A stretch of DNA of 64,000 nucleotides from Myxococcales bacterium (GTDB lineage: Bacteria > Myxococcota > Kuafuiibacteriia > Kuafuiibacteriales > Kuafuiibacteriaceae): the NCBI GenBank assembly GCA_019634385.1, contig JAHQVK010000093.1, positions 1-64,000 on the forward strand. Direction: 5' to 3'. Positions 20,640 to 57,563 of this stretch are shown piece after piece (positions within the stretch are counted from its first letter, which is position 1; every line of letters starts with the position of its first letter). The notes under the pieces were generated by a model. That model had not been told where the DNA came from. It made no database searches and saw only the letters and a program-made list of their open reading frames with translations. Both the position numbers and the translations under genes were made by a program.

Positions 20640-22046
20640 ACTTATCCGGCCTTGATCCTTCCCACTGGCTGACTAGCTTCTCCCGAAGAGCAATCTAGTC
20701 AACCTTCGTCCTAAAACATCATACACTCGGCAGCGAGGCTTCGTAGCCTTTCCCCATATCAGTCACTGATGCGCCATAGCATCGGGTGAATGGGCACATA
20801 CAATGTCCTTATCCCGTTTATCCAACCTGACACAATACCACCAACAAACACACTGAGGCACTGCCAACAAGGGCGACCGCCACCTTATTCGTACCCCATC
20901 TCCCGTTTCTCAAGGGCCGCTGATCTTTCCAGTTCACGAGTTTCATTCGTGCATTTTCTACCATCATCGTTCGTGGGCAGCAGCGACATGTTTATGAGCA
21001 TACGACCAATGCCTTGCCACAAGTCCTCTGGCGGAAGGCTTTCGATGAAGATGCGTACTTGCCGGGTAGTAGTAATGCGCTTTGATACCAACGAACTCCC
21101 CTCTAGGCGTAACTGATAAGACCTTTGGTCAAACCTCAACGTTTGCAATAACTCTGTCGGTGTAGAGCGAAACGTTCCCACCGCACTGTTCCTTGCACAC
21201 CGTTATACGCAGACAAAGCATTGGCTAAGCCATCATAAACACACATCGCTCTCCTTTGCGAACCTCCCCCGTTACCCGTCGCTATGACCTTGCCCATATG
21301 GACAATTACCTCCCCCACAGGATGTCTGGTCATAGCTCCGTCTTCGGTTAGGTTATCGCCCACTTGCTCCAAAACCACTTGATGGCCTCCTAAGAGCTAG
21401 TCTCCCTAAAACGACCGGATACTATACCTAAGGACCGACCTAAACGCTATAAGGGGTGGTCACCAAAATAGCTTCTCCCGATGGCTAAGCGTTGCCACTG
21501 GTGCCTTCTTCCTAGGGCCTGTATTAACGTAGGACGTGGGCTACAGCAGGAATCAATTCCAAGTGGTCTTTGCTGTATTGATCCTCCCCGATTCGCGTCA
21601 ACAGGCTTACGGTCCCGCTTCGTCTGTGACCGTTCAGTCAGCCAGCTATGGTAGCCTCCGTAAGAGTCCGAACATTCACTTAAACCAAGTGCTTCACAAT
21701 AGTTCCGCACCGACCTTAAAGACACACCCCAGTGTCCTACGCCCGTAAAAACACGGAAATTCTCGGGTCGCTTTTGGGTCCTGATCTTCACGGGAACAAG
21801 ACGCATATCCGTAGATATGTAGCCGGCCAAAACCATAGACGGACAGATAACAAGACCAAAAAAACCGTTGTCGAGTACTGTAGTTTCTACGCACTCAGGA
21901 CACTAGCAAGCGATTCGCTAGAGTTCATCTCTCTCCTTGGCCCCTTCGTTGTCGCCAACCCGAACGCCCCTTCCTCGACTTTCGTCCAATGATCGAGCCC
22001 CACTCAACGCCTTCATCATCGCACGTCTACAGCTAGAGCTCTGCAC
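20640..22046. other. apparently non-coding or decayed region between regulator genes and mutS
   Basis: only short overlapping ORFs; contains the 36-bp repeat derivative and borders full repeat copy 1. Confidence 0.5.
21542..21577 (+). mobile_element. 36-bp internal-deletion derivative of the dispersed TA-bounded repeat
   Basis: TACAGCAGGAATCAATTCCAAGTGGTCTTTGCTGTA = 8 nt of the left end joined to ~28 nt of the right end of the family. Confidence 0.65.
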
Positions 22047-22158
22047 TACAGCAGAAATCACTTGGGTTGAACCCAAATTCCTGCTCCTACGCCGGGCTAT
22101 GCCCCCTGCGCACCCCCTTGGTGAGTCTTACAGAATCATGCAAGTGGTCTTAGCTGTA
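22047..22158 (+). mobile_element. MITE-like dispersed repeat, copy 1 (112 bp)
   Basis: TACAGCAGAAATCACTTGGGTTGAACCC...CAAGTGGTCTTAGCTGTA; terminal inverted repeats, three internal hairpins; directly abuts mutS stop codon. Confidence 0.75.
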
Positions 22159-24915
22159 CTACCCATCCTGAAGTGTGGCCTGCAGTTCCCCTAAAACAGC
22201 AAAGGCCTTTCTGGGGCTCAAATCATCCAGATCCAATGAACGTAGCCTCGCCACAACCTCAGCAATGTGGGTATCACCAAAAACGTCAGCGCCACCTTGA
22301 TCGTCATCTTCGGTTGCATAAGAGTCATGAGAGACTTCCAAATCATCTTGTTGCCCACCCTCAGCAAAATCCATAGTGAGCTGACGGACGAACCCACCTC
22401 TCGTGTGGAGGGATTGTGACTCCAGATCCTGAAGCAGCCCCCGGGCTCGCGAAACCACAGTTGCTGGTAAACCAGCCAATCTGGCTACTTGTACACCGTA
22501 GCTTCGGTTGGTTGCCCCTGGTAGTAGTTTACGCAAGAAGACAATATCATTTTTATGCTCACGAACAGCCACATGGTAGTTAACCACCCCATCCTTCTGG
22601 GTAGCTAGTTCAGTCAACTCATGGTAATGAGTTGCAAACATCGTTCGTGCCTGCACCTTGTCATGGATATACTCTGCAATCGCCCAGGCAATAGCAAGAC
22701 CATCGAAAGTGCTTGTACCCCGACCTATTTCATCTAGGATAATGAGATCATACTCTGTAGCCGAACGTAATATCCTGGAAGCTTCAGTCATTTCGACCAT
22801 AAAGGTAGAGCGTCCTCGTGAAAGATCATCACTGGCGCCCACCCGAGTGAAAACTCTATCCACTCGGCCCAACCTGGCTTTCTTCGCAGGCACCAAGCTT
22901 CCAAGATAGGCCAAAATAGTTATGAGCGCGGTTTGACGCATAATCGTCGACTTGCCCGCCATATTAGGACCAGTCACAATAAGTAATCGTTCCCCCTCGC
23001 TCAACAAAACATCATTTGGCACAAAACGCTCACCCAAAACACCAACCAACGCATCCAACACCGGGTGTCGACCATCCTGAATATCGATATCAAGACCGGC
23101 ATGCATCTCGGGCCGAACCCAATCGCCTGATCGCGCCAAGAACGCAAGCCCCTGGAACACATCAACTTCAGCGAAAGTTGCCGAAAGAGCCTTTAGGCGA
23201 GCCACCTCCGCGCCCACTTGTACTATGAGCCCAGTTAGCTTCTCTTCAGTTCTTTGAGCTCGACGCTCCTCCGCATGAAGCAATTCATCCTCAAGCTCCT
23301 TCAATTCTTCCGTAAAGTATCGCTCAGCATTGACGGTGGTCTGCTTACGGATAAAACGATCCGGAACAAGAGCTAAATTGGACTTGGTTACTTCGATAAA
23401 GTAACCAAATACCTTATTATACTTCACTTTTAGCGAGGGGATTTTGGTGTCGTGGCGTTCACGCTGTTCTAGTTCCTCCATCAGGGCTTTGCCCTTTGCT
23501 GCTAATTCCGAATACCGGTCGAGTTCTGCATCAAATCCCTCACGAAAAATGGGCCCTGTCAGGGGAGAATTAGCTGGTTCATCCAGAAGAGCCTCCACTA
23601 ACCACTGTGCTATATCTTTGCAGTCATCTGTACCCGACAAAACTCTAAGGCGCTCGCTGCCAAACCGTTCTGCAATAACCTGAACCTTGCTAAGGACATC
23701 GGGAGCAGCCTGAAGAGAGCGAGCGAGCTGCACCAAGTCTTTGGCTAGTGCTCGCCCCAGCATAATGCGTCCCACCAGACGGTCGGTGTCCGCAACTGCG
23801 CCTAAACACCCGCGAAGAGACTCTAAATCGCCAAGAGAGGCTCGGATACTTTCAACTGCATGGTGTCTTTCAGCTACTTTCTTTAGATCACGCGAAGGAT
23901 AAGCCAACCAATCCGATAACAGCCGGGCCCCCATTGGAGTTATCGTTTTGTCGATCGCCCCCAATAAGCTCCCTTTTCGAGTCCCTCCAGAGGAGACAAA
24001 CAGCTCAAGATGTACCCTTGCCTCCCGATCAATTATGAGGGCCTCGCCAGGCACATAAGGACGAAGCTCCAGAATATGCCCCAAACTCGCTGGACTGCTG
24101 ACATCCGGTGCCTCCTTCCGAACCTGAGTGAGACGAGCGTAGGCAATCGCCCGTCCAGCCGCCACCAGCGCCGCCTCCGCCAAGAGCTCTCTTAAGGCAT
24201 CGACATCTGCCGGTCCTAAATGCTTATTTAGATTGGCAAGACTAGAGACCTTTCCATGATCTTTTTCGTCGAGAGGGGTAATAAGCAGTCCCGCCTGCGC
24301 TTCGTGGAGCGCACGAATGCTTGGATGCTGACAGTTGTTTTGCACAACCAACACCTCCCGCGCCTGAAGCCGAAGAACCTCGTCGACCAAAGCCTCAGCT
24401 CCAACGCCATTTGTCGCCCGAAAATCACCGGTGGCGACATCGAGTGCAGCCAGCCCCCAGTGAATAACCGCCCGTTTCTTTTCTCCGAGTTCCAGCGCAA
24501 CCAAATAGTTCCGCGCCCCTGGCACCCCACTAGGATCAATAAACGTTCCTGGGGTGATAATTCGAGTGATCTCTCGACGAACCAAACCTTTGGACTGCTT
24601 GGGATCCTCGACCTGGTCCACCAAGACTACGGTGCGCTGTTGCTCCACCAGTCGCCCCAGGTACGCATCGAGCGCATGATGAGGTACGCCCGCCATGGGA
24701 ATGTCACGCTCTTTCGAACGAGCTGTTAACGCGATATCAAGTCGCTGAGCACATTCCTCAGCATCCTCAAAAAATGTCTCAAAAAAATCTCCCATCCGGA
24801 AAAACACCAACGCCGTCGGATGCTCCATCTTGACAGAGAGATATTGTCTCATCATGGGCGTCAGCGACGGGGAAGCTAGGCGCTGTTCTAGGCGTAAACG
24901 TAGTTCTTCGGACAT
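22159..24915 (-). CDS. mutS: DNA mismatch repair protein MutS
   Basis: MVFFRMGDFFETFFEDA-type mutS I domain, Walker A TGPNMAGKSTIMRQTALI, Walker B LIILDEIGRGTSTFDG; start at MSEELRLRLEQ (24915). Confidence 0.97.
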   Translation of the reverse strand: MSEELRLRLEQRLASPSLTPMMRQYLSVKMEHPTALVFFRMGDFFETFFEDAEECAQRLDIALTARSKERDIPMAGVPHHALDAYLGRLVEQQRTVVLVDQVEDPKQSKGLVRREITRIITPGTFIDPSGVPGARNYLVALELGEKKRAVIHWGLAALDVATGDFRATNGVGAEALVDEVLRLQAREVLVVQNNCQHPSIRALHEAQAGLLITPLDEKDHGKVSSLANLNKHLGPADVDALRELLAEAALVAAGRAIAYARLTQVRKEAPDVSSPASLGHILELRPYVPGEALIIDREARVHLELFVSSGGTRKGSLLGAIDKTITPMGARLLSDWLAYPSRDLKKVAERHHAVESIRASLGDLESLRGCLGAVADTDRLVGRIMLGRALAKDLVQLARSLQAAPDVLSKVQVIAERFGSERLRVLSGTDDCKDIAQWLVEALLDEPANSPLTGPIFREGFDAELDRYSELAAKGKALMEELEQRERHDTKIPSLKVKYNKVFGYFIEVTKSNLALVPDRFIRKQTTVNAERYFTEELKELEDELLHAEERRAQRTEEKLTGLIVQVGAEVARLKALSATFAEVDVFQGLAFLARSGDWVRPEMHAGLDIDIQDGRHPVLDALVGVLGERFVPNDVLLSEGERLLIVTGPNMAGKSTIMRQTALITILAYLGSLVPAKKARLGRVDRVFTRVGASDDLSRGRSTFMVEMTEASRILRSATEYDLIILDEIGRGTSTFDGLAIAWAIAEYIHDKVQARTMFATHYHELTELATQKDGVVNYHVAVREHKNDIVFLRKLLPGATNRSYGVQVARLAGLPATVVSRARGLLQDLESQSLHTRGGFVRQLTMDFAEGGQQDDLEVSHDSYATEDDDQGGADVFGDTHIAEVVARLRSLDLDDLSPRKAFAVLGELQATLQDG

Positions 24916-24966
24916 AGAAGGCGCCCCGACTATCAAGGCTGACAGAAGAGATCGAGGCACGCTTTC

Positions 24967-25285
24967 TTCCGCTGGCGTCTGGAGACCATTCCCTATCTGC
25001 GCTGGCGAACCGAAACAGATCAAGAGACTCCTTTTCCCACGCGCGTCTAAGAACCATTCCTTGCTGCGTTGGCGAACAGAAAGGGACCAAGATGCCCAAG
25101 TTCCGCCGGAGTCTCGTGACCACTCCCTATCCACGTTCGTGAGCGAAAAGGGACCAAGATGCCCCGTGTTCCGCCGGAGTCTCGTGACCATTCCCTATCC
25201 GCGTTGGTGGACGGAAAGAGTTCGACAAGCCACCTTTTTTTCCACTGGAGTCTTGGGCCCGTTCCCTATCCGCGTTATCTGAGCT
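24967..25285. repeat. degenerate ~67-bp tandem repeat array (about 4.7 units)
   Basis: units begin near 24967, 25034, 25101, 25169 and 25240 with shared TTCCGCCGGAGTCTCGTGACCATTCCCTATCCGCGTTGG core. Confidence 0.8.
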
Positions 25286-25286
25286 T

Positions 25287-26240
25287 ATGACGTCGCCCGC
25301 GGATACCCCCCTGACGACTCTGGAGCGCACAAAAAAACTCAAAGAACGAGCTCTAGAACTTGGATTTGACGCGTTTGGTGTAGCTCTAGCCCAGACCGCA
25401 GATCCGGAACACCGGCTTCGAGCCTGGCTCGACCGAGGGTACCACGGGAACCTCAGTTGGATGGAGACCACCTATGAACGCCGGGTAGATATCACCAAGA
25501 GCCTGCCAGGAGCACGCTCTGTGGTAGCCGTCTCTGCAAGCTATTATCGCGGAGAGATAGCACCGAATGCCAAATTAAAGATCGCTCGCTATGCCCAGGG
25601 CAAAGACTATCATCGATGGTTCCGGCGTAAGGTGCGCAAGCTCCGTAAGTACCTTATTCAACTAGCCCCCGGGTGCCAGGTGTATCCAACCGTAGACACA
25701 TCCCCAGTCCTCGAGCGGGAATGGGCAGCACGCGCCGGAATCGCCTGGATCGGCAAATCCACCATGGCTATCCATCCCCAGCTTGGAACTTATACTTACC
25801 TCGGAACCCTCATCACCGACTGTGAACTTGAGCCCAACGATCCGCTACCTAACCGATGCGGTACCTGCACGGCCTGTCTTAGCGCATGTCCGACTCAGGC
25901 TTTTGTCGAACCCGGTGTGCTCGACGCCCGAAAGTGCATCGCCTATTGGACACTTGAACAGCACGGGGAGCTTCCTGACGATCTTCCCCCCTTTCACGGT
26001 TGGACCGCAGGATGCGATATCTGCCAAGAGGTCTGTCCCTGGAACAAGTTTGCCAAAACATCCACAGACCCCCATACCGACCCCCACCCTCACCTACTAT
26101 CCCCCGACATCGATACCTTCACTTTGCCAGATGCCAACGAGTCCCTGTGCGACGCCTTACGGGCCACGACGCTTCAGCGCACGGGCGCAGAAACCATCCG
26201 TCGGAATGCCCGCCGAAACCTCCATATGAAAAAGATCTAG
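25287..26240 (+). CDS. queG: epoxyqueuosine reductase QueG
   Basis: two 4Fe-4S motifs CGTCTACLSACPTQAF and CDICQEVCPWN; start ATG at 25287. Confidence 0.93.
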   Translation: MTSPADTPLTTLERTKKLKERALELGFDAFGVALAQTADPEHRLRAWLDRGYHGNLSWMETTYERRVDITKSLPGARSVVAVSASYYRGEIAPNAKLKIARYAQGKDYHRWFRRKVRKLRKYLIQLAPGCQVYPTVDTSPVLEREWAARAGIAWIGKSTMAIHPQLGTYTYLGTLITDCELEPNDPLPNRCGTCTACLSACPTQAFVEPGVLDARKCIAYWTLEQHGELPDDLPPFHGWTAGCDICQEVCPWNKFAKTSTDPHTDPHPHLLSPDIDTFTLPDANESLCDALRATTLQRTGAETIRRNARRNLHMKKI

Positions 26241-29049: not shown

Positions 29050-30465
29050 CTAACCGCCAATGAGCTGTAGTGCAACCTGCGTGGAAACGTTAGCCTGAGC
29101 AAGCATCGCGGTTGAGGCCTGCTGAAGAATTTGGTTCTTGGAGAAATCCGCCGTCTCGGCAGCAAAATCCGCATCCCGGATGCGACTTCGAGCAGCCGAA
29201 ATATTCTCTGAGGCCGCTGACAAATTAGAAACCGCAGCATCCATGCGGGAGAGAATTGCCCCAAGATTGGCCTGCTGGGTAGACACCTGGCGAATAGCAG
29301 TATCCAACAAACCAATGGAGGTATTGGCTCCGCTTTGAGTACCGAGATCAATAGTACTGATATTCACCGCGGTATTCACCAACACCGTGCCAACAGCCCC
29401 TCCAAGCCCCGCATTTGCCGGGGTTCCTCCCCCGATGGTAAAAGCATCATCCGACTCAAGAGTTATTGTACCATAGGTAACTCCCGCTGGACTCGCCGCA
29501 AATGCTGCCCCCTGAGGCGCGGTCCCCGATATCTCGATATTCCGACCATCCCCAGCAGTCAGCACCAAATTATTGCTGCTATCCAAGGTTGCCAAAACCC
29601 CGGTTTGATCCCCGATTGCATTAATAGCATTACGAAGCGCGTAGGTTGAGTCATCAGCGGCCACTGAAACGCTACCTACATCTATCCCATTGATCAGAAG
29701 ATCTGCGGAGGTGAATGCATGAGCCGCAATACCACCAGCGATAGTCACTGTCGTTGCATCTGCCGTTGCTACCACTCCGTGCTCTGCACTGCCTGAATTG
29801 ATCGCAGCGGCCTTAGCAACTGCCGACGCAGCATTGCCGGTACTCGAGAGCATATCGTCTGTCGCAGCCGAACTACGAATGCCAACTCCGTTCAACGTCA
29901 ACTCCCCAGCCGTTAACGCTGTGTTTGTCACGGAGGAAGAGGTCTGCTGCGCAATGGCCCCGAGTGCAAAATAGCGAGCTGAGTCGATCGACAGGCTAAC
30001 ATTCTGGTCCGAATATGCCCCTACCTGGAACTTTAAATCATTGAATGAGCCATCGAGTAACTTTCTCCCATTGAACTCGGTCTGCGTGGCTATGCGATCA
30101 ACCTCCGCCAGCAATTGATTGACCTCGGTTTGAATCGCTGCTCGATCAGTTGCAGTATAGGTATCATTCGCAGACTGCACAGATAGCTCACGCAACCTTT
30201 GAAGTATAGACTCTGTCTCCCCCAAAGCGCTTTCTGCGGTCTGCGCCAGAGAAATACTATCGTTGGCATTACGAACCGCCTGATTTAGCCCTCGAATCTG
30301 CGCTGTCATTCGACTGCTAATAGCTAAACCAGCAGCATCGTCTTTCGCCGAATTAATACGCAAGCCACTTGAAAGCCTCTGAAAATTGCGGCTTAACGCG
30401 TTATTATTTTCCATCAACCGCCGCTGAGTATTCAGCGACGAAATATTCGTCGAGATAGTAAGCAC
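29050..30465 (-). CDS. fliC: flagellin
   Basis: LTISTNISSLNTQRRLMENNNALSRNFQRLSSGLRINSAKDDAAGLAIS; C-terminal ARSRIRDADFAAETADFSKNQILQQASTAMLAQAN; GTG at 30465 preceded by AAGGAGG. Confidence 0.96.
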   Translation of the reverse strand: MLTISTNISSLNTQRRLMENNNALSRNFQRLSSGLRINSAKDDAAGLAISSRMTAQIRGLNQAVRNANDSISLAQTAESALGETESILQRLRELSVQSANDTYTATDRAAIQTEVNQLLAEVDRIATQTEFNGRKLLDGSFNDLKFQVGAYSDQNVSLSIDSARYFALGAIAQQTSSSVTNTALTAGELTLNGVGIRSSAATDDMLSSTGNAASAVAKAAAINSGSAEHGVVATADATTVTIAGGIAAHAFTSADLLINGIDVGSVSVAADDSTYALRNAINAIGDQTGVLATLDSSNNLVLTAGDGRNIEISGTAPQGAAFAASPAGVTYGTITLESDDAFTIGGGTPANAGLGGAVGTVLVNTAVNISTIDLGTQSGANTSIGLLDTAIRQVSTQQANLGAILSRMDAAVSNLSAASENISAARSRIRDADFAAETADFSKNQILQQASTAMLAQANVSTQVALQLIGG

Positions 30466-30492
30466 TTGAGCTCCTCCTTGGAACCACATTCA

Positions 30493-30510: not shown

Positions 30511-30564
30511 CGAACTCCTCTTCCGTGAGTCGACCGAGACTTCCCGCCCTGGTCTTTCTTTCGA

Positions 30565-30678
30565 TACAGCAGAAATCACTTGGGTTGAACCCAAGTTCCT
30601 GCTACTATGCGGGACTATTCCCCGCTGCGCGACCACTTATTAATTCTTACAGAATCAATGCAAGTGGTCTTTGCTGTA
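30565..30678 (+). mobile_element. MITE-like dispersed repeat, copy 2 (114 bp)
   Basis: TACAGCAGAAATCACTTGGGTTGAACCCAAGTTCCTGCT...CAATGCAAGTGGTCTTTGCTGTA; upstream of fliC. Confidence 0.8.
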
Positions 30679-30726
30679 TCGGCCATGATACATCTATTTA
30701 ATAGTGGTCCTGACCTGCAATACTAA

Positions 30727-31089
30727 CTACATATGTGTACTAAAGACCCTAGGCTTTCTCTCTGCAGAGGCAAAGCGGGTTCGAACAGCCTTCCCTGCTC
30801 GGAGAGAGACTATCGCGCGGCCTAGCCCATCAAGCACCTGATTAGCTAGTTGAGCCAAGCGATCCTCTCTCTCCAAGGCTCTTTGCAACCACAGCCGTTG
30901 CTCATCAATCGGCACTACCGGATCACCTTTGCGGTTAAATGGCTGAGCTGTCGTAAGACGTCGTCGTTCTCGGAGCAGATCCGACACTATTGTGACATCG
31001 ACTTTAGGTCGACCCAACTCTTGCTCTAACGCTGACGACAGCTCATCCCATCGACTACACCAGGCCCGGTTAGATGCGGGCCTCTGCAT
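30727..31089 (-). CDS. small flagellar protein, FliT/FlgN-like chaperone candidate
   Basis: C-terminal helical LANQVLDGLGRAIVSLRAGKAVRTRF resembles FliT/FlgN tails; start after fliW at ATG 31089. Confidence 0.4.
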   Translation of the reverse strand: MQRPASNRAWCSRWDELSSALEQELGRPKVDVTIVSDLLRERRRLTTAQPFNRKGDPVVPIDEQRLWLQRALEREDRLAQLANQVLDGLGRAIVSLRAGKAVRTRFASAERKPRVFSTHM

Positions 31090-31627
31090 GTCCTTCTCCA
31101 CTGGACATGAGAGCATCCGCTGTCTGTTCCTTAGCTTCCTCCAAGCCTTCATTCAGAGTCTTAATCTCTTCGAACATAGAATAATCAGCCTTCTGAAGGA
31201 TAACCTGAACCGCAAGTCGATTATCAAGATTGAAGATAATCGGTGCTCGGAGATTAGCAAAGAAGCGGCGCTTTTGCTCGTCCCACTTTAGTACTACCCT
31301 CATAACAAGAGATGGAACCACACCTTCATCATCAGCCAGCTTTAGCTCGCCCACTTGCTCTTCCCGAACATCAGCAACGTATCCCTGAAACAACTGGTCC
31401 GGATCAGCTAACAACAATGCTATACCCGGTTCATCAAGAGATTGAAGCCAGTTATAATCCGGAGCGTCCTCTAGATGAAGAAGACACCAAGTTTTGAGCA
31501 TATCAAATCCAGCAATTCCCGATGGGAAGTTTATGACTTGCTCTTCGCTGATCTCAACTTCACCAAAACGAGCTGAGGTTACTCTGATTTTATTCGTTGT
31601 ATTCATTTTATTCACCAGTTTATCCAA
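31070..31627 (-). CDS. fliW: flagellar assembly factor FliW
   Basis: FGEVEISEEQVINFPSGIAGFDMLKTWCLLHLEDAPDYNWLQSLDEPGIALLLADP. Confidence 0.93.
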   Translation of the reverse strand: MDKLVNKMNTTNKIRVTSARFGEVEISEEQVINFPSGIAGFDMLKTWCLLHLEDAPDYNWLQSLDEPGIALLLADPDQLFQGYVADVREEQVGELKLADDEGVVPSLVMRVVLKWDEQKRRFFANLRAPIIFNLDNRLAVQVILQKADYSMFEEIKTLNEGLEEAKEQTADALMSSGEGHAEARI

Positions 31628-57450: not shown

Positions 57451-57563
57451 TACCGCAAAGACCACTTAATTGATTCTGTAAGAATCACCAAGAGGTCGCG
57501 TAGCGGGGCATAGCCCGGCGTAGAAGCAGGAACTTGGTTTCAACCCAAGTGGTTTCTGCTGTA
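57451..57563 (-). mobile_element. MITE-like dispersed repeat, copy 3 (113 bp), inverted relative to copies 1 and 2
   Basis: reverse complement TACAGCAGAAACCACTTGGGTTGAAACCAAGTTCCTGCT...AAGTGGTCTTTGCGGTA; between fliE and fliF. Confidence 0.8.

Follow-up and report, generated by a model that had tools for sequence, protein, structure and literature searches.

A dispersed 114-bp repeat with a cloverleaf fold duplicates TA and resembles a MITE in a Myxococcales genome

Introduction

What is the 114-bp element that separates a flagellin gene from the next open reading frame in this Myxococcales bacterium, and why does it fold as a cloverleaf? The window, a stretch of 64,000 nucleotides of DNA (contig JAHQVK010000093.1) that was analyzed as a whole, carries the element in three full copies. 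A first-pass annotation made from the letters alone described a terminal inverted repeat that encloses three hairpins, and proposed that its structure is under selection, either as a substrate for transposition or as RNA.

Results

Architecture of the element

The element, its parts and its neighbors in the window are as follows.

21542-21577, plus strand: 36-bp remnant with both ends and without the arms, the result of an internal deletion
22047-22158, plus strand: second full copy, adjoining the end of mutS (22159-25191, minus strand)
29050-30489, minus strand: flagellin gene, neighbor of the 114-bp element
30565-30678, plus strand: full 114-bp element, TA to TA, flanked by the flagellin gene and the next ORF
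30565-30573, plus strand: left half of P1, the closing stem made by the terminal inverted repeat; it begins with one of the two TA copies of the target duplication
30578-30596, plus strand: hairpin H1, with 8 bp and a 3-nt loop in the consensus
30609-30625, plus strand: hairpin H2, mismatched at its loop end in this copy when read in the consensus register (A.C at 30614/30620, C.T at 30615/30619)
30631-30669, plus strand: hairpin H3, with 17 bp and a 2-nt bulge in the consensus; the sole arm with clear pairwise correlation among copies
30670-30678, plus strand: right half of P1, ending TGCTGTA
30727-31152, minus strand: next ORF, on the other side of the element
57451-57563, minus strand: third full copy, in the gap between fliE and fliF

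Folding bears out the proposed extent of the element, its terminal inverted repeat and its three hairpins. The region 30555-30690 yields a minimum free energy (MFE) of -51.3 kcal/mol (z -6.7), compared to -27.9 +/- 3.5 for its dinucleotide-shuffled versions. The 221 full genomic copies have a consensus that folds alike, with P1 (consensus positions 1-9/106-114) enclosing H1 (14-21/25-32), H2 (45-51/55-61) and H3 (67-83/87-105). The element starts with TACAGCAGAAATCACTTG and ends with CAAGTGGTCTTTGCTGTA; its inverted ends are TACAGCA/TGCTGTA, or at greater length TACAGCAGAAA...TTTGCTGTA. All consensus frames except one, as read from the sequence, are interrupted by stop codons. The third hairpin had been recognized as ATTCT/AGAAT, which exists as part of a longer arm of about 17 bp in the consensus (GACCACTTGTTGATTCT / AGAATCAATTCAAGTGGTC).

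Two further details of the original description fare less well. Two mismatches in the terminal stem had been read as potential G-U wobbles, and these are indeed compatible with G.U pairing, whereas a third mismatch, seen when the consensus stem is read as 18 bp, is A.C; because all three are common to the consensus, they are no evidence of selection. An A-T pair in H2 of the window copy had been taken as a covarying replacement for C-G. The consensus register has the pairs 50/56 and 51/55, and the window copy carries G to A at 50 and G to T at 55, so that both pairs are lost. The apparent A-T pair is thus out of register, and is made by sliding the stem by one base.

Full copies share a mean identity of 90% with the consensus. 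The cloverleaf is a legacy of the founder, in which a terminal inverted repeat enclosed three further inverted repeats; individual copies have decayed from it since. The window also contains imperfect tandem repeats of ~70 bp (24946-25294) that span the start of mutS and the divergent ORF at 25287. Relatives of this MutS are only 36-45% identical and are a mixture from deltaproteobacteria, Myxococcota, Acidobacteria, Planctomycetota and Clostridia.

Copy number and target site

The genome from which the window derives (5.39 Mb in 257 contigs, 93% complete) contains 597 matches to a 27-base core of the repeat when up to 3 mismatches are permitted, and the reversed control yields 0. In a genome sample of 1.88 Mb there are 221 full-length copies among a total of 330 copies or fragments, which scales to about 950 copies (900-1000), ~640 of full length, or ~2% of the 5.39-Mb genome. 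A search of 56 further genomes from the phylum, including three from the same family, did not find the repeat, and the exact core 22-mer has no match in GTDB or viral collections, where near-identical genomes are possibly missing.

The boundaries of the copies are sharp (TACAGC/GCTGTA), and their flanks are unrelated save for TA. Paralogous empty sites carry one TA and filled sites carry TA on either side, as evident from L061:305 compared to L061:4772 (...CAGAAG-TA-AGCCC...) and from L040:19235 compared to L040:631; therefore, the element duplicates TA. A different repeat family nested inside 114-bp copies presents the same TA pattern. At L008:1501-1727 (contig C199), a pair of 114-bp copies forms a head-to-tail tandem in which the TA ends are directly fused. 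TA duplication is typical of IS630/Tc1-mariner transposition, and an IS630-family transposase targets TA (PMC2170065). With its non-coding sequence, inverted ends, many mostly intergenic copies and target-site duplication, the element has the hallmarks of a MITE (miniature inverted-repeat transposable element).

Other repeats are also plentiful in this genome. A dispersed repeat, TAGGGCGTGTCTTnAAACTCCGGCTGCGGAGATGACGCC... (L040:631-723, L125:13163-13255, L107:9188-9280 and others), has itself received 114-bp copies. A second abundant palindromic repeat of ~175-180 bp, TAGCAGCCGGTTGATCTAGCCC...GGGCTAAATCAACCGGCTGCTA, is flanked by TA and is sometimes nested in the 114-bp element (L091:18120-18412, L145:7487-7777, L145:17313-17603 and elsewhere), and a third abundant repeat of ~183 bp in the genome sample, CCCTAGCAGGCCATCGGAAAAGTG...CACTTTTCCGATGGCCTGCTAGGG, has CTAG at both ends.

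Candidate transposases

The genome contains three IS630-type genes, of which one is intact and two are broken. The intact element (359 aa; L151:1352-2529, contig C191) is inserted at CTAG and has the ends GTGTAGTGCGAACGACTT, which are quite different from those of the 114-bp repeat, and it was rejected as the parent. Neither of the two broken genes has ends like those of the 114-bp element, and IS5-type genes were likewise rejected as parents because they lack these ends. A search of the 1.88 Mb for end pairs that might delimit an autonomous element returned nested, mini or chance pairs only, and none of the multi-copy ORFs in the genome sample is a transposase, as judged by sequence. Transposase genes in the sample are very few, as against thousands of miniature repeats.

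A transposase of the IS630/Tc1-mariner type is the likeliest mover, a class that is inferred rather than demonstrated because the intact IS630-type element has quite different ends and IS5-type genes lack those of the repeat. The 114-bp element works like an IS630-type MITE. We do not claim membership among IS630-type MITEs, because shared ends were sought and not found.

Genomic placement

Predicted genes contain none of the 248 near-full copies but 72% of random positions. Because these genes were predicted with a simple in-house script, and because any inserted copy would disrupt the ORF that received it, the flanks were also joined by script. An ORF extending at least 80 codons on each side spans the joined flanks at 1% of element sites, compared to 81% of genic TAs and 10% of other TAs. 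This placement fits the purging of insertions into genes. Coding density in the genome sample is low, at ~75% with this simple type of predictor.

Between tandem genes, 49 copies are oriented with the genes and 47 against them, and the shares in convergent, divergent and tandem gaps are roughly proportional to gap length. A role as a terminator, or any role that depends on orientation, was rejected given this lack of strand bias and of an excess between convergent genes.

Compensatory changes are concentrated in H3

We counted compensatory changes in the 221 full copies, with permutation within divergence strata. The two helices on which the case for covariation had been built yield no excess: H2 has 9 doubly changed, still-paired cells compared to 6.6 expected (p 0.21), and P1 has 1 compared to 3.2 (p 0.98). 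H1 displays a small excess (10 compared to 3.7 expected, p 0.003), and H3 a clear one (38 compared to 18.3) that is matched by no shuffle; slid registers yield none in the same copies. Compensatory changes throughout all helices, as expected for a structured RNA family, were thus not found.

Variants that break pairs have multiplied. C47.C59 occurs in 89 copies (40%), C71.T101 in 66 and C14.T32 in 44, and the H2 pair 47/59 is formed in just 48% of copies. Of 1185 changes confined to one side of a pair, 882 abolish the pairing. Even 71/101, the pair most variable on both sides, has 41 double changes where 40.7 are expected, and its two positions are therefore independent overall. Arm energies of H3 are better matched than in permuted copies (z -5.9), also within sequence clusters (-4.9) and among bulged copies (-2.9); those of H1 (z -1.6) and H2 (z -1.0) are not clearly better. 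The energy of the whole element, when compared to column permutation, gives z -9.4 in a test in which shared ancestry remains.

The H3 excess resides mostly in 36 copies that lack the two-base bulge of the right arm (19 compensatory cells compared to 9.6 expected), and a weak signal persists in bulged copies (18 compared to 11.6, p 0.03). Likewise, a Watson-Crick pair is present at 71/101 in 26 of 33 bulge-less copies compared to 58 of 177 bulged copies (p 1e-6). This link between bulge loss and mirroring was found post hoc, and a hold-out set of 51 further copies (7 bulge-less), which is underpowered and enriched for near-consensus copies, left it unconfirmed (3/7 compared to 15/43).

Mirrored arms and inverted loops

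Several bulge-less copies carry private changes that are mirrored in both H3 arms (CTGG/CCAG, CTTATT/AATAAG and GATCCCT/AGGGATC). Moreover, whole loops are inverted, from TAT to ATA in H2 (4 copies compared to 0.08 expected) and from TAC to GTA in H3 (2 copies compared to 0.002); H1 has no loop inversions beyond chance. Loop inversion together with arm mirroring is a proposed footprint of template switching during replication (PMC8794818). We therefore infer that switching between arms, rather than selection on RNA, is the main mechanism behind the H3 correlation. The order of the signals, with H3 above H1 and H1 above H2 and P1, follows the length of the stems and how near their arms lie to each other, which is the trend predicted for template switching. 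Some residual selection may act on H3.

A different source of the same pattern would be ancestry alone, in which a bulge-less, perfectly paired subfamily was amplified and no recurrent template switching took place. Bulge-less copies are mutually closer outside H3 than random sets are (0.133 compared to 0.163, p 0.018), and it is permutation within sequence clusters that lowers the H3 score from -5.9 to -4.9. However, the mirrored private changes are several and distinct, the loop inversions occur in unlike copies, and most nearest neighbors of bulge-less copies have the bulge (26% lack it compared to 16% in random sets, not significant). We regard ancestry alone as a serious contender, albeit an unlikely one. 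More generally, apparent covariation in repeat families needs to be read with caution, since common ancestry, a shifted register or template switching may produce it without selection on RNA.

Short single-hairpin derivatives

Template switching may also bear on shorter forms with the ends TACAGCA/TGCTGTA. About nine forms of 54-59 bp consist of H3 between two right-type ends, and a few of 44-46 bp consist of H1, mostly between two left-type ends. Sites of 57-59-bp forms include L098:1934, L095:5434 and L099:5330, and those of 44-46-bp forms include L064:448, L131:6571 and L128:10300. The 57-bp copy at L098:1934 has one rare change in both of its ends (TACCGC/GCGGTA), as expected if one end had been copied from the other. 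These single-hairpin forms probably arose in situ from 114-bp copies.

Discussion

The observations are, in our judgment, probably explained by a TA-duplicating MITE that is mobilized in trans, that owes its cloverleaf to its founder, and whose H3 and H1 correlations arise mainly by template switching. A transposase that recognizes the inverted ends would mobilize this short, non-coding element in trans, and insertion at TA would duplicate the dinucleotide. Copies would survive almost solely between genes because selection would remove those inserted into genes. Template switching during replication would then copy one hairpin arm onto the other, giving rise to the correlation in H3 and, to a lesser degree, in H1. 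The earlier proposal of selection on structure accordingly divides in two: the part that saw a transposition substrate agrees with a dispersed, TA-duplicating repeat of very high copy number, and the part that saw selection on the structure itself is not supported.

Might the cloverleaf instead be a functional RNA, or an mRNA-processing element in untranslated regions, whose fold is under selection? Such a role would accord with the stable fold (z -6.7), the compensatory excess in H3 and H1, the greater stability of whole copies relative to column-permuted ones (z -9.4), and the location of copies upstream of a flagellin gene and between fliE and fliF; there is precedent in the processing by RNase III of RNA hairpins from a Neisseria MITE (PMC2229807). 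However, if the cloverleaf were selected, P1 and H2 should be affected as well, and their lack of compensatory excess disfavors such a role. In MFE folds of single copies, half or more of the base pairs are retained in 164 of 221 copies for P1, 163 for H1, 128 for H2 and 164 for H3, and in just 62 for all four helices together. About half of the copies have a mispair at 47/59, and about half at 71/101; H1 and H2 resemble permuted copies in energy, orientation is unbiased, and the element has no Rfam 15 match at gathering score. A functional RNA is therefore improbable.

A REP-like palindrome that a Y1 (RAYT/IS200-type) transposase mobilizes in the form of a single-stranded hairpin would likewise have palindromic arms, intergenic dispersal and perhaps 44-59-bp single-hairpin derivatives with the same ends, but this is very improbable, as the genome (93% complete) has no match to Y1_Tnp (PF01797), and TA duplication and sharp inverted ends fit a DDE transposase instead.

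If a template-switching MITE is the correct reading, the ~950 copies may, as we suggest tentatively and with rather less than even confidence, form a readable record of template switches that comprises arm mirroring, bulge loss, loop inversion and the creation in situ of 45-bp and 57-bp forms with intact ends. Such a record would capture the birth of new palindromic mobile repeats from an old one. Since the same hairpins are decaying in hundreds of copies, the family could also serve to gauge template-switch rates as a function of stem length and loop size. Template-switch mutations reported for RNA hairpins similarly combine compensatory and other changes in one arm, removal of bulges and inversion of loops; that report concerns RNA genes under selection, whereas the changes described here occur in decaying copies of a mobile element (PMC8794818).

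Among known repeats, RUP (repeat unit of pneumococcus) is a 107-bp MITE linked to IS630-Spn1, and it resembles the present element in its length of ~110 bp, intergenic location, insertion at TA and strong base pairing (PMC2229807). This comparison is by description. RUP differs in having ~108 copies and ends common with an IS630 element, whereas here ~950 copies are estimated and no such element was found in the 1.88 Mb searched for end pairs. CIR of Caulobacter and Brucella is also ~110 bp and intergenic, and has an RNA model of separate hairpin arms (PMC2229807), but its two arms are joined by a linker and have no end-to-end stem, whereas the paired ends of the 114-bp element enclose three arms. 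ERIC and Correia/NEMIS are, like this element, MITEs scattered between genes, and their inverted ends terminate in TA; they differ in sequence and hosts, there is no Rfam or sequence match between them and the present repeat, and the copy number here is somewhat higher than that of ERIC, which reaches 711 copies in Photorhabdus (PMC10969869). The 114-bp repeat thus apparently represents a new and very abundant MITE family, seemingly undescribed, whose copy number is above that of the bacterial examples compared.
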